64,000 bases of DNA from Terriglobus roseus (GTDB taxonomy: Bacteria; Acidobacteriota; Terriglobia; Terriglobales; Acidobacteriaceae): positions 124,001 to 188,000 of the forward strand of contig NZ_LT629690.1 of assembly GCF_900102185.1 (NCBI RefSeq). Reading direction: 5' to 3'. Below the pieces are notes generated by a model. The model was not told the DNA's origin. It worked only from the letters and a program-made list of their open reading frames with translations, and searched no databases. The translations under genes and the position numbers were made by a program. Below, piece after piece: positions 2,024-8,350 of the stretch. Position 1 is the first letter of the stretch. The number at the start of each line of letters is the position of its first letter.

Positions 2024-2280
2024 GAAAAACCTGTCCAAGCCCCTAACCCCTTCAAACCCAACAAACCAAAAGAAATAGAGTTGGCAGGTTATTTCCTTCA
2101 ACTCACTACAATTGAAGTAAGGAACTACCCGCGCCGGCCTCTTGCCCCAGGCGCGTCAAGTTAAGTCCTTTAGAAAGACGATTTTGCCTCTAAACCTAAT
2201 GGGCTGACGATTTTAGAGACATCGCTACCGCAACCCCTTTAGAAAGACGATTTTAGAAAAACAGGGGAGGGGGTACCCCC
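2024..2280 (+). repeat. Intergenic element copy 1 (triple GACGATTTT units ending in GGGTACCCCC)
   Basis: About 257 bp filling the gap between plsY and cinA. Ordered landmarks: AAACCTGTCCAAGCCCCTA (2027-2045), CAAACCCAACAAACCAAA (2053-2070), TTATTTCC (2089-2096), CTACAAT (2106-2112), GACGATTTT at 2177, 2206 and 2246 (steps of 29 and 40), then GGGGAGGGGGTACCCCC up to the last base before the cinA stop. An inverted second copy with the same landmark order lies at 8094-8350. No protein is encoded. Function unknown; see findings. Confidence 0.8.
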
Positions 2281-3552
2281 TTACGAAAGCAATTTCTGCC
2301 GCAACATCACCAGCGCATATTGCGACGCAAACCAGCGGACGCGCTCACGGTCGCCGCTCAGGTTTAACTCACGAACCTGCGTACCTTCCGCATCGGCAAG
2401 CGCAATGTAGACACGGCCAACAGGCTTGTTCAACGTCGCTCCTCCAGGTCCAGCGATACCGGTAACACCAATCGCCAGGTCAGACCCAATACGCGCGCGA
2501 ATGCCTTCTGCCATCGCCCTCGCCACAGGATCACTCACTGCACCATGCTTCTGGATCAGCTCCTTCGGCACATCGGCAAACAGCGCCTTCAACTCATCGG
2601 AGTAGACAACTGCGCCACCAAGGAATGAGCGTGATGATCCGGAAACAGCAGTGAGCCGTTCCGCAATCAGTCCGCCAGTGCAGCTCTCCGCCGTGGACAG
2701 CGTCAGGTGACGCATGCCCAGCATGAGCAGAACCACCTGCTCCAGCGACTCGCCGTCGGCAGAGAAGACGGAGTCCATCATCTCGTGCTCGCACTTGGAC
2801 AGCACCTCGTCCACGCGCTCCTGCGCCTCTTCCAGCGTGGGCTTGGCACACAGGAAGTGCAGTTGGATCTCGCCGCCCGTACTCAGAATGGTCGTGCTCA
2901 CATCGGGATACGAAAGGTAGATAGGCGAAGTGCGTGCATCCACTTCACTCTCAGGCACCACAGCCATGCGCAGCCAACGATACGCAATGTGCAACCGCGG
3001 AATAACCTGCTGCAACCGCGGACGCACCTGCTCCACAAACATGGGCAGCAGCTCCTTAGGCGGTCCCGGCAGCAGCGCAATATACCGCGGCTTCCCCCCA
3101 TACTCCGTAGCCATCCACTGACCCGGTGCCGTACCGTTGGGGTTAGGCAACAACTTAGCCCCATCGATCACATCAGCCTGTTTGAAGTTGATCTCCTGAA
3201 TCACAAGGCCGCGCTTGGCGAATCGCTGCTTCAGTCCTTCCACAACGGTCTCGTTGCGCGTCATGCCAACACCAAGCGCAGACGCGACAGCTTCACGCGT
3301 AAGGTCGTCCTCAGTCGGTCCAAGACCACCGGAGAACAGCACAATGTCCGCACGCGTAAGCGCGATCTTAGCCGCATCCACCAGATGCTGGAAGGTATCG
3401 CCAAGGATGGTCTTGAACGCAACGGTGACGCCAAGCTTATTCAGCTCCGCAGTCATGGCAAGCGAGTTGGTGTCCTGTCGGTAAGGCGTGAGCATCTCGC
3501 TGCCCACGGCAATAATCTCCGCAATCATGCTGGGTGTCGGGTCGGTGGCCAT
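2281..3552 (-). CDS. cinA: CinA family protein (nicotinamide-nucleotide amidohydrolase)
   Basis: Two-domain cytoplasmic protein of 423 residues. The N-terminal MoCF/COG1058 domain (about 9-175) shows GSEMLTPYRQDTNS (17-30), SGGLGPTEDD (74-83) and LLPGPPKE (160-167). The C-terminal amidase domain (about 275-420) shows TAESCTGG (287-294) and GVTGIAGPGG. The family deamidates nicotinamide mononucleotide to recycle NAD by-products and is historically linked to competence. The start follows the stop of the IPT/NHL gene by one base, so the two are likely coupled; Met9 is an alternative start. The stop abuts the GGGTACCCCC end of the repeat element. Confidence 0.93.
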   Translation of the reverse strand: MATDPTPSMIAEIIAVGSEMLTPYRQDTNSLAMTAELNKLGVTVAFKTILGDTFQHLVDAAKIALTRADIVLFSGGLGPTEDDLTREAVASALGVGMTRNETVVEGLKQRFAKRGLVIQEINFKQADVIDGAKLLPNPNGTAPGQWMATEYGGKPRYIALLPGPPKELLPMFVEQVRPRLQQVIPRLHIAYRWLRMAVVPESEVDARTSPIYLSYPDVSTTILSTGGEIQLHFLCAKPTLEEAQERVDEVLSKCEHEMMDSVFSADGESLEQVVLLMLGMRHLTLSTAESCTGGLIAERLTAVSGSSRSFLGGAVVYSDELKALFADVPKELIQKHGAVSDPVARAMAEGIRARIGSDLAIGVTGIAGPGGATLNKPVGRVYIALADAEGTQVRELNLSGDRERVRWFASQYALVMLRQKLLS

Positions 3553-6388: not shown

Positions 6389-8065
6389 CTAGTCGAGAAT
6401 CCTTGCGACCACGTCGTAGTCGTGGGCTTCAGTGATCTCGGCCTGGTAGAAGGTGCCGGGTAGGAGGGCTTCGTGGGGGCCGAAGTCGTTCAGTAGGACG
6501 TGGCCGTCGATCTCCGGGGCTTGCTGGAGGGTACGGGCCTGCCATAGGAGTTCGGTCTCCTCGCTGGGGCCTTCCACGAGTACTTCCACTACCTTGCCAA
6601 CCTGTGCGGCGCGGGCTTTGGCGCTGAGCTTGAGCTGGGTGCGCATCAGCTTGCGGCGGCGTGACTCGATGGTGCGCTTTGGCACCTTGTCGCCGAGGTC
6701 GAAGGCTGGTGAGCCTTCCTCGTCCGAGTAGGAGAAGACACCGAGCCAGTCGATCTTGGCGGCCTTGATGAAGGTCTCCAGTTCGGCGAACTCCTCGTCC
6801 GTTTCGCCGGGGAAGCCGACGATGAAGCTGGTACGGATGGCGATGTCCGGGACGATGCTGCGGGCCTTGTCGAGCATGCGGAGGAAGATGTCGCCGCTGC
6901 CGCCACGCTTCATACGCTTCAGGACGGTTGGTGAGGCGTGCTGCAACGGTACATCGAGGTACTTGGCAATGTTGTCGTGCGCCGCGATGGTCTCCAGCAG
7001 CTTGGTGGTGACCTTGTTCGGATAGGCGTAGAGGAAGCGCAGCCAGTGGATCTTGCCGATGCCTTCTACTTCCAGTGTGGCGAGGGCTTCGAGCAGCATG
7101 GCGAGGCCGTCCTTCATGCCGAGGTCTTCGCCGTAGCAGGTGGTGTCCTGACCGATGAGGGTGATCTCGCGGACACCCTGCTTCACCAGGTTCTCTGCCT
7201 CGTTGAGGATGGAGGAGATGCGGCGCGAGCGGAACTTGCCGCGGAGCTGCGGGATGATGCAGAAGCCGCAGGGATGATCGCAGCCTTCGGCGATCTTGAT
7301 GTATGCCGAAGCGCGCGGTGTGCTGAGGATGCGCGGCGTCTCGTCGGAGTAGAGATAGCTGGGCAGCTCGGCGGTTGCGCCATCCCAATCGGTGCGCGCG
7401 AAGCGGCCCTGCTTCTCGCGGAGGTCGCCTTCGGGGCGCGAGGTCTGTTCGGGGACTTCAAGCTGGCTGTGCTTGCGCACGGCGCTGGATGCGCGGTCGA
7501 TGAGGCTGCTCTCCGCGATGGTTGCGGGAGAGAGATTGCCTTCGGCTACTTCCACCTCAAGCGCGGCTGCTCCACCGAGTTCGGTGTGCGCGTGCGTGTG
7601 AACCGGTGCGTTCGCGGAGGTGAGGATGTTGAACGGGCTGTTGTTCGGGACGGGCTTTGGGTGCAGGCCTGCTGCGGCGAGGATGTCGTCCAGTTCGCCT
7701 GTGCCGAGGACAGCGTCGACTTCGGGGATGTTCTTCTGGATCTCGTCGCGGTAGCGCTCGACGAGGCAGCCGGTGACGATGAGGCGCTTGGCGCGGCCTT
7801 CGGTCTTGTGCTGCACCATCTCGAGGATGGTGTTTACGCTCTCCTGCTTGGCGGAGTCGATGAAGGAGCAGGTGTTGACGACGATGATGTCGGCGTCTTC
7901 CGCGGCTGGTGTGAGTTGCGCGCCTGCGTGGTGAACCATGCCCATCATGACCTCGGAGTCGACGAGGTTCTTCGGGCAGCCGAGCGAGACGAAGCCAATC
8001 TTTGGCCGTTCGATGGTGTCGGTGCTGAGGTTCGTTTTGATTTCTGCTTCGGTGATGGTTGGCAC
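6389..8065 (-). CDS. rimO: Ribosomal protein S12 methylthiotransferase RimO, with a large insertion
   Basis: Radical-SAM enzyme that methylthiolates a conserved aspartate of ribosomal protein S12. The first Fe-S cluster cysteines are C30, C66 and C100 in the methylthiotransferase domain; the SAM cluster is EGCDHPCGFC (C262, C266, C269); a TRAM-like domain closes the protein. At 558 residues it is about 100 longer than usual. The extra length lies between the domains (about 140-240), is rich in Ala, Glu, His and Ser, and looks disordered. Translation starts at GTG 8065 with AGGGA eight bases upstream; the repeat element begins about 30 nt further upstream. Confidence 0.95.
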   Translation of the reverse strand: MPTITEAEIKTNLSTDTIERPKIGFVSLGCPKNLVDSEVMMGMVHHAGAQLTPAAEDADIIVVNTCSFIDSAKQESVNTILEMVQHKTEGRAKRLIVTGCLVERYRDEIQKNIPEVDAVLGTGELDDILAAAGLHPKPVPNNSPFNILTSANAPVHTHAHTELGGAAALEVEVAEGNLSPATIAESSLIDRASSAVRKHSQLEVPEQTSRPEGDLREKQGRFARTDWDGATAELPSYLYSDETPRILSTPRASAYIKIAEGCDHPCGFCIIPQLRGKFRSRRISSILNEAENLVKQGVREITLIGQDTTCYGEDLGMKDGLAMLLEALATLEVEGIGKIHWLRFLYAYPNKVTTKLLETIAAHDNIAKYLDVPLQHASPTVLKRMKRGGSGDIFLRMLDKARSIVPDIAIRTSFIVGFPGETDEEFAELETFIKAAKIDWLGVFSYSDEEGSPAFDLGDKVPKRTIESRRRKLMRTQLKLSAKARAAQVGKVVEVLVEGPSEETELLWQARTLQQAPEIDGHVLLNDFGPHEALLPGTFYQAEITEAHDYDVVARILD

Positions 8066-8093
8066 GCGAGTGTCCCTGCCGGGGTGAGTGGTG

Positions 8094-8350
8094 GGGTACC
8101 CCCCTCCCCCCTCAAATTTCTAAAATCGTCATGCGGAAGGACTTAGCGCGCGAGTTTCCCTAAAATCGTCATACGATTGGGGTTACACGCAAAATCGTCA
8201 TTCTGCTGGAGTTAGCAGCCGCCCGCCAAGGCTTATGCGTGCTCCTGTATGGTCACCCTCTATTGTAGCGGGTTTTGGGGAAATTATCGGCATGGGGAAG
8301 TGGTTTGGATTGTTTGGGTTATGAGGACTAGGGCTTGACAGGTTTTCAGG
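8094..8350 (-). repeat. Intergenic element copy 2 (inverted relative to copy 1)
   Basis: Read on the minus strand it repeats the landmark order of copy 1: AAAACCTGTCAAGCCCTAG (about 8346-8328), AACCCAAACAATCCAAA, ATAATTTCC, CTACAAT (8268-8262), GACGATTTT with starts at 8199, 8170 and 8130 (steps of 29 and 40), then G-rich sequence and GGGTACCCC (8096-8099 core). Both spacings equal those of copy 1. It is the leader region of rimO. On the plus strand its outer edge holds TTGACA (8335-8340), a possible -35 box for the gene at 8570. Confidence 0.8.

Follow-up and report, generated by a model that had tools for sequence, protein, structure and literature searches.

What are the two intergenic stretches that share one ordered set of short sequence blocks, the spacer between cinA and plsY and the leader of rimO, and what could they be for? 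Both lie in the window, by which is meant the whole 64-kb stretch of DNA analysed (positions 124001-188000 of a 4.85-Mb single-contig genome, labelled G000). The first-pass annotation had described their common blocks in a stated order, with three GACGATTTT words at steps of 29 and 40 nt over the same total length, and all of this is present as claimed (Table 1). With ends set by the family to which they belong, the copies measure 251 bp each and are 76% identical (178 of 235 ungapped positions in a global alignment), and GACGATTTT occurs exactly at 2177, 2206 and 2246 on the plus strand and at 8199, 8170 and 8130 on the minus strand, in both cases with starts 29 and then 40 nt apart. Aligned locally, they score 81, whereas none of 1000 dinucleotide-preserving shuffles scored above 28. 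Taken by itself, GACGATTTT with up to one mismatch is not enriched, at 15 occurrences in the window for 13.5 expected; significance resides in the ordered block set rather than in this word alone. Copy 1 is antisense to its neighbours and reaches, with its GGTACC end, directly up to the stop codon of cinA; copy 2 forms the sense leader of rimO.

Table 1. Features of the two window copies (window positions) and the Y1 domains located near copies in a comparison of five element-bearing genomes
Feature	Position	Strand	Basis
Copy 1 of the element (cinA-plsY spacer)	2031..2281	+	family alignment, profile, pairwise comparison with copy 2
(C)TGTC(C)AAGCCCC, conserved 5′ end and left limit of the conserved element	2031..2044	+	family alignment
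A-rich conserved block AACAAACCAAAAGAAATAGAG	2060..2080	+	family alignment
TTGGCAGGTTATTTCC block; TTGGCA starts 26 nt before TACAAT	2081..2096	+	spacing measurement
TACAAT within the conserved (C)TAxAATAGAA block, resembling a -10 hexamer; promoter function putative	2107..2112	+	family alignment
Hairpin slot, CGCGCC...GGCGCG in copy 1	2130..2155	+	stem by eye
Unit 1, copy 1, core GACGATTTT 2177-2185	2162..2187	+	exact match
Unit 2, copy 1, core GACGATTTT 2206-2214	2191..2216	+	exact match
Unit 3, copy 1, core GACGATTTT 2246-2254	2231..2256	+	exact match
Terminator-like stem and GTTTTTC, directly after the cinA stop codon	2263..2281	-	terminator scan
G-run and GGTACCCCC palindromic 3′ end, copy 1	2264..2281	+	family alignment
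cinA, convergent 3′ neighbour of copy 1	2281..3552	-	name from the first-pass annotation; matched in 19/19 genus genomes
rimO, codirectional 3′ neighbour of copy 2	6389..8065	-	name from the first-pass annotation
Copy 2 of the element (rimO leader)	8091..8341	-	profile, block order, pairwise comparison with copy 1
GGTACC end of copy 2 with its G-run; the start codon of rimO follows after ~25 bp	8091..8111	-	sequence
Unit 3, copy 2, core 8122-8130	8120..8145	-	exact match
Unit 2, copy 2, core 8162-8170	8160..8185	-	exact match
Unit 1, copy 2, core 8191-8199	8189..8214	-	exact match
TACAAT of copy 2	8262..8267	-	sequence
Y1 domains near copies	G013:C3:226007, G007:C1:1548259, G007:C2:17557		
Y1 domains near copies	G011:C1:3272824, G011:C1:4463886, G004:C1:747370		

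The window copies are members of a dispersed, non-coding modular family of ~250 bp with a fixed layout. Copy 1 as a BLAST query gave 44 matches in G000, several of which are pieces of one copy; copy 2, not among the best 40 of the 50 BLAST candidates from copy 1, is linked to the family via the profile (E 3.7e-44). An iterated profile (HMM) produced 46 matches in 44 of the 45 loci supplied, with no profile match in L081, which had been fetched for an exact 11-mer match, and 41 of the 44 loci align at full length. Together with four further places the genome holds at least 48 copies, 48 being likewise the count of the unit pattern at up to one mismatch, so the profile and pattern searches dispose of the early concern that the two might have no further copies. 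The pattern ACGATTTT-N0-30-GGGGGTACCC counts 24 in G000 and 26 and 11 in its sister species G013 and G007, and none in 38 other relatives; reversed, it counts 0. Across the order, the strict unit pattern (up to one mismatch) is found in 63 of 397 genomes and 13 of 80 genera, and its reversed control matches 6 of the 397, implying that part of the single unit-pattern matches are chance. A looser pattern matched Edaphobacter aggregans, an Edaphobacter MAG, Granulicella sp. dw_53 and an Acidobacteriota MAG. Two G007 contigs, C1 and C5, both begin inside the element at the identical base (bases 1-89), and the assembly may thus have broken at near-identical copies; the G011 pairs L279/L281 and L305/L306, identical across the printed stretch, are probably segmental duplications.

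From 5′ to 3′, the first half of the element consists of (C)TGTCAAGCCCC, a spacer, AACAAACCAAAAGAAATAGAG, TTGGCATGGTATTTCC and (C)TAxAATAGAAA; a hairpin slot follows, and then the second half with units 1 and 2, a spacer, unit 3 and AAAAACAGGGGGGAGGGGGGTACC, each 26-nt unit having the consensus TAACYCCWWTAGAAAGACGATTTT and two more bases. Spacing was measured on 114 aligned full copies of the three sister species. TTGGCA and TAxAAT were both recognised in 76 copies, and in 75 of these they are 26 nt apart; among the 81 copies with three recognised cores, the step from unit 1 to unit 2 is 29 nt in 79, and that from unit 2 to unit 3 is 40 nt in 68 and 41 nt in 12. From TAxAAT to the core of unit 1 the distance varies between 50 and 128 nt with the length of the hairpin slot. 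The fixed spacing proposed at the outset is therefore upheld inside each half (26; 29; 40/41 nt) and lost across the slot, and binding on one helix face does not follow from it by simple arithmetic, since with 10.5 bp per turn neither 29 nor 40 nt makes a whole number of turns. The slot itself is swappable, being occupied in other copies by a 9-bp GC hairpin or by other sequence, and, judged against mononucleotide shuffles, it folds at z < -2 in 55 copies out of 87 and not in the other 32. A GGG-N6-loop-N6-CCC layout is present in 54 copies (44 distinct). In these rows, which were selected for the outer pairs and, with orthologues included, are not independent, pairing is standard in 372 of 396 cells, a level reached by 0 of 1000 column shuffles, and some pairs are changed on both sides, as in covariation. 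By eye, the 41 full-length G000 copies have three units. L075 is a split or partly duplicated copy, L231 from another genus has extra unit-like repeats, and in some relatives a similar layout goes together with a third unit of another kind. Another 5′ half, CTTGACA-N6-8-TAxAAT, is carried by 6 of the 33 G011 copies (motif test; L307, L301 and L278 are examples from G011 and G004). CTTGACA is TGTCAAG in reverse complement, and in L307 this 5′ half is followed by a strong hairpin that is terminator-like on both strands.

The unit core is nearly uniform inside the closely studied genomes and different between lineages. It reads GACGATTTT in 277 of 342 units of the three sister species (191 in register and 86 taken as one alignment column off), and TCTRATTTTT in 99 of 141 unit positions of G011 and G004, which belong to the same genus and have steps of 29 and 41. 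Among the matches listed, cores recurrent within a genome are GACGACTTT (G386), CCCGATTTT (G137), CAAATTTTT (G293) and TCGGATTTT (G021), and mixed cores within one genome are found in G024 and G073. G011 has six copies at five loci in common with G000, L305 and L306 being the duplicated pair. A clearly locus-specific sequence is seen in the rimO pair only, which ranks 1 of 41, the remaining common copies ranking 4 to 23; the core may hence have changed in place or by re-insertion, and pure in-place replacement of the core was set aside. Between the rimO leaders of G011 (L271) and G000 (L082), all three cores differ in concert and the other blocks are common.

The proposal that the second copy was not a recent one gains from the flanks: for 42 of the 44 copies in G000, a flank recurs beside a copy of G013 or G007 (L025 and L068 have no flank in common with any copy of either species). 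Taken together with units that are more conserved than their surroundings, this indicates that the copies are old and constrained. In 30 orthologous pairs of G000 and G013, identity is 0.91-0.95 in the units and 0.96 in the TAxAAT block, compared with 0.70-0.79 in the spacers, 0.50 in the stretch after the G-run and 0.83 in the least-conserved codon phase of flanking genes; in 26 pairs of G000 and G007, units have 0.85-0.89, spacers 0.61-0.64 and the codon phase 0.76. Gene conversion between copies could account for part of the unit constraint. Whether a copy is present at a given place varies with the lineage. The rimO copy is also found in G011 and, decayed, in G004, and in the remaining 14 genus genomes none stands upstream of rimO (by eye). 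The cinA-plsY copy is present in three of the 18 genus genomes printed (G000, G013, G007), the other 15 having cinA and plsY closer together or a different neighbour, and it was probably gained in the G000/G013/G007 lineage. L152, a G013 copy, is absent from G000, where two stop codons touch and the difference is 253 bp; at this empty site, the only one of such quality between G013 and G000, there is no target duplication. The absence may reflect precise loss in G000 rather than gain in G013; in G007, ~117 bp of other DNA lie at the place.

The two sides of the element have fared differently, in that the DNA beyond the TGTCAAG end differs between species far more often than that beyond the GGTACC end. 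With 1500-bp flanks and at least 400 bp aligned, loci compared between G000 and G013 retained both flanks in 20 cases, only the GGTACC side in 13, only the TGTCAAG side in 1, a mixed pattern in 1 and none in 9; the corresponding numbers are 12, 18, 0, 0 and 14 for G000 and G007, and 12, 14, 0, 0 and 15 for G013 and G007, the class of none being partly due to comparison of the best 40 of 55 and 40 of 44 candidates. Counted per G000 locus, 24 retain only the GGTACC-side flank and 1 only the TGTCAAG-side flank (binomial 1.5e-6). The comparison of G011 with G004 gave 7 loci with the GGTACC side only, 1 with the TGTCAAG side only, 5 with both and 20 with none. The sole TGTCAAG-side exception involves the two near-identical copies L071 and L076. 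In two-sided loci, the gap to the neighbour has a similar length on either side of the element. Of 45 one-sided pairs, 35 were measured at the edge: the 30 bases upstream have at most 15 matches in 30 of them and at least 24 bases kept in 5, and at most 15 matches are also seen in 16 of 29 two-sided pairs (4 of 15 for G000 and G013). The element itself has a median identity between G000 and G013 of 0.909 in one-sided, 0.921 in two-sided and 0.833 in random pairs; since one-sided pairs are as similar as two-sided ones, a joint replacement of element and cargo is ruled out for these two species. At nine one-sided loci for which 20 kb of upstream DNA was inspected, synteny is restored 0.1-10 kb further upstream, and the intervening pockets hold extra ORFs, up to ~10 kb, that appear by eye to be ordinary accessory genes. 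In 4 of the 9 loci the pocket ends, judged by eye, at the stop codon of the upstream gene or no more than ~10 bases from it, and no common far-end motif or recombinase was noticed by eye in the nine. In G007, the same mosaic of short hairpin repeats is found at the TGTCAAG edge of 15 of the 38 fetched copies by a motif test, and of more by eye (e.g., L180, L184, L191); it is ordered and includes CGCCGAAGGCG and GCACGAAGTGC.

Minus-strand terminator-like sites are found in 28 of 44 copies in G000, 28 of 41 in G013 and 25 of 35 in G007, for 15.4, 15.2 and 16.2 expected from dinucleotide shuffles, so that the composition of G-run and A-run accounts for over half of them; plus-strand sites are found in 9, 5 and 5 copies for 2.3, 2.2 and 1.8 expected. 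Mononucleotide shuffles, from which 0, 0 and 1 were expected, were too lenient, and the dinucleotide shuffles halved the excess. The minus-strand stem region of copy 1 has 5 overlapping terminator-like sites, the mean in dinucleotide shuffles being 0.7. By neighbour orientation, assigned with a simple purpose-made ORF picker, the minus-strand terminator occurs in 21 of 25 G000 copies with a convergent 3′ neighbour and in 7 of 19 others (p 0.0018). The link is weaker in G013 (p 0.15) and G007 (p 0.25), which represent largely the same loci; it holds in G004 (6/8 vs 0/6, p 0.0097), is reversed in G011 (11/25 vs 5/8) and is not significant for the two combined (p 0.36). In 19 of the 44 G000 copies the 3′ neighbour is codirectional, and the minus-strand terminator is thus without plain use there. 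No link was found for a plus-strand terminator serving the TGTCAAG-side gene in the sister species (p 0.70, 0.11, 0.63) or in G004 (0.56), and in G011 the direction is opposite (p 0.047).

A CRISPR array combines identical repeats with unique spacers of ~26-72 bp and cas genes, and was rejected on account of the gaps of only 3 and 14 nt left by the 26-nt units; a type III toxin-antitoxin system has its toxin gene directly beside the repeat array, and was likewise rejected, copies 1 and 2 adjoining cinA/plsY and rimO. Neighbour lengths and strands vary from copy to copy. With intrinsic bidirectional terminators, which are hairpins with a T-run at gene ends, the element shares the minus-strand hairpin and T-run at that position, but a terminator needs neither a fixed architecture of 250 bp nor three direct units. 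Miniature inverted-repeat transposable elements (MITEs) such as ERIC and Correia are short, non-autonomous and able to carry promoter or terminator parts, and are defined by terminal inverted repeats and target duplications. Like them, the element exists in many non-coding, non-autonomous copies (at least 48, of ~250 bp); unlike them, it has no target duplication at the one clean empty site and no terminal inverted repeat, with 8 of 30 end positions matching and no inverted repeat joining the ends of copy 1 or L011. No autonomous copy was noticed. According to PMC3049150, BOX of Streptococcus resembles the element, being dispersed, modular and non-coding, having predicted hairpins and repeating its middle module, and differs in its variable number of boxB modules, its terminal inverted repeats and its target duplications; the element has three direct units at fixed steps and a lineage-specific core, and neither terminal inverted repeats nor, at the one site examined, a target duplication. 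REPs are described in PMC3733652 as palindromes of 20-40 bp, unlike the 26-nt direct repeats of a 250-bp element. There is a likeness to REP/REPIN sequences with their Y1 (RAYT) transposases (PMC6006769) in high copy number, intergenic location and lineage-specific sequence, Y1 domains being found near several copies here, and in G007 REP-like hairpins adjoin the TGTCAAG end of the element. Of 16 Y1 transposase domains, six have a copy no more than 2 kb away and stand each on its TGTCAAG side, but Y1 domains also occur in genus genomes without unit matches. The 16 are those of G000, G013, G007, G011 and G004, with positions compared by hand and a below-cut-off match in G005 left out; by a hand estimate, some 4% of a genome is that near to a copy, and at least two pairs among the six are orthologous loci. 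No published description of the element was found among the titles and abstract openings searched.

Based on the collective evidence, the element is tentatively understood as an old non-autonomous mobile element turned into a cis-acting boundary cassette for the gene on its GGTACC side, a possible account and the best single one that we can offer. It draws on fixed spacing, the lineage-specific core, age, constraint, gain, one-sided linkage, the terminators and hairpin covariation; the dinucleotide-shuffle control has lowered its probability. The element would have begun as a non-autonomous mobile element. Its three direct units may serve as double-stranded DNA sites for a putative oligomeric, lineage-specific DNA-binding protein, evolving together with the unit core, and the hairpin slot and the G-rich end would supply intrinsic terminators on the minus strand. 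Terminators and units would stop transcription leaving the convergent neighbour, and the boundary so formed would shield the GGTACC-side neighbour against accessory DNA that comes in past the TGTCAAG end. That the element is instead a plain miniature mobile one, whose copies are alike only through amplification of one master per lineage, with units that are sites of a lineage-specific transposase and with no host function, is somewhat unlikely. No flank in common with any G000 copy was found at 27 of the 33 G011 loci, making amplification largely lineage-specific, and the clean empty site at the place of L152 and the Y1 domains on the TGTCAAG side also speak for it. The missing terminal inverted repeat, the missing target duplication at that one site and the failure to notice an autonomous copy argue against it, however, as do the flanks shared between species by nearly all G000 copies and the conservation of blocks above that of flanking third-codon-like sites; Y1 domains are, moreover, frequent also in genus genomes without a unit-pattern match (e.g., G002, G008).

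The side bias in flank turnover might also mean that the TGTCAAG edge is an active site of recombination or breakage at which accessory genes land, with units that recruit the enzyme. Such a landing pad is consistent with the divergence of the upstream 30 bases next to an orthologous element in most one-sided pairs, with the extra ORFs in the nine pockets and with the recurrence of the bias between G011 and G004; yet it is unlikely, because the same 30 bases are poorly conserved in two-sided pairs too, suggesting that the gap turns over anyway, because five one-sided pairs keep most of them, and because the pockets offered neither a common recombinase nor a far-end motif to the eye. Selection keeping the element beside the GGTACC-side gene accounts for the same bias. 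Slightly lower again we place a small-RNA family, in which transcription would start at TAxAAT and the three units would be read in RNA form. The strong conservation of that block and the covarying hairpin after it are in its favour. The suggestion made early on, that CTACAAT is a -10 box whose transcript carries the units, has become doubtful: the gap between TTGGCA and TAxAAT is 20 nt, neither of the two copies scanned (copy 1 and L011) has a sigma-70-type promoter with -35 and -10 boxes 16-18 nt apart, the two promoter-like sites of L258 are both located elsewhere than TTGGCA-TAxAAT, and in L307 a terminator-like hairpin stands between TACAAT and the units. More than a third of the hairpin slots, besides, fold no better than z -2. 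Rfam gave 0 matches at gathering in the whole window, in line with the initial impression that no known family fits, and at E up to 5 only far-below-gathering matches, nothing credible, on copy 1 and L011; the families searched include Acido-1 and Acido-Lenti-1, named as such in PMC2864571. The least probable of the readings is that the element forms the chromosomal half of a gene-capture system, in which a putative lineage-specific protein would read the array and open or cut the DNA at the TGTCAAG edge. Were it true, the genome would have ~50 standing ports at which accessory genes could be swapped without harm to the gene on the other side.

Lastly, the analysis extends the earlier observation of two copies to a family with wide dispersal, lineage-specific cores and one-sided turnover of flanks. 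A genome carries some 50 of these old and constrained non-coding elements, and relatives of them occur across the Acidobacteriaceae, which implies that a DNA-binding system exists for which the recognised word changes from one lineage to another. The elements mark pockets of gene-content difference among soil Acidobacteria, which can thus be easily listed and tested.
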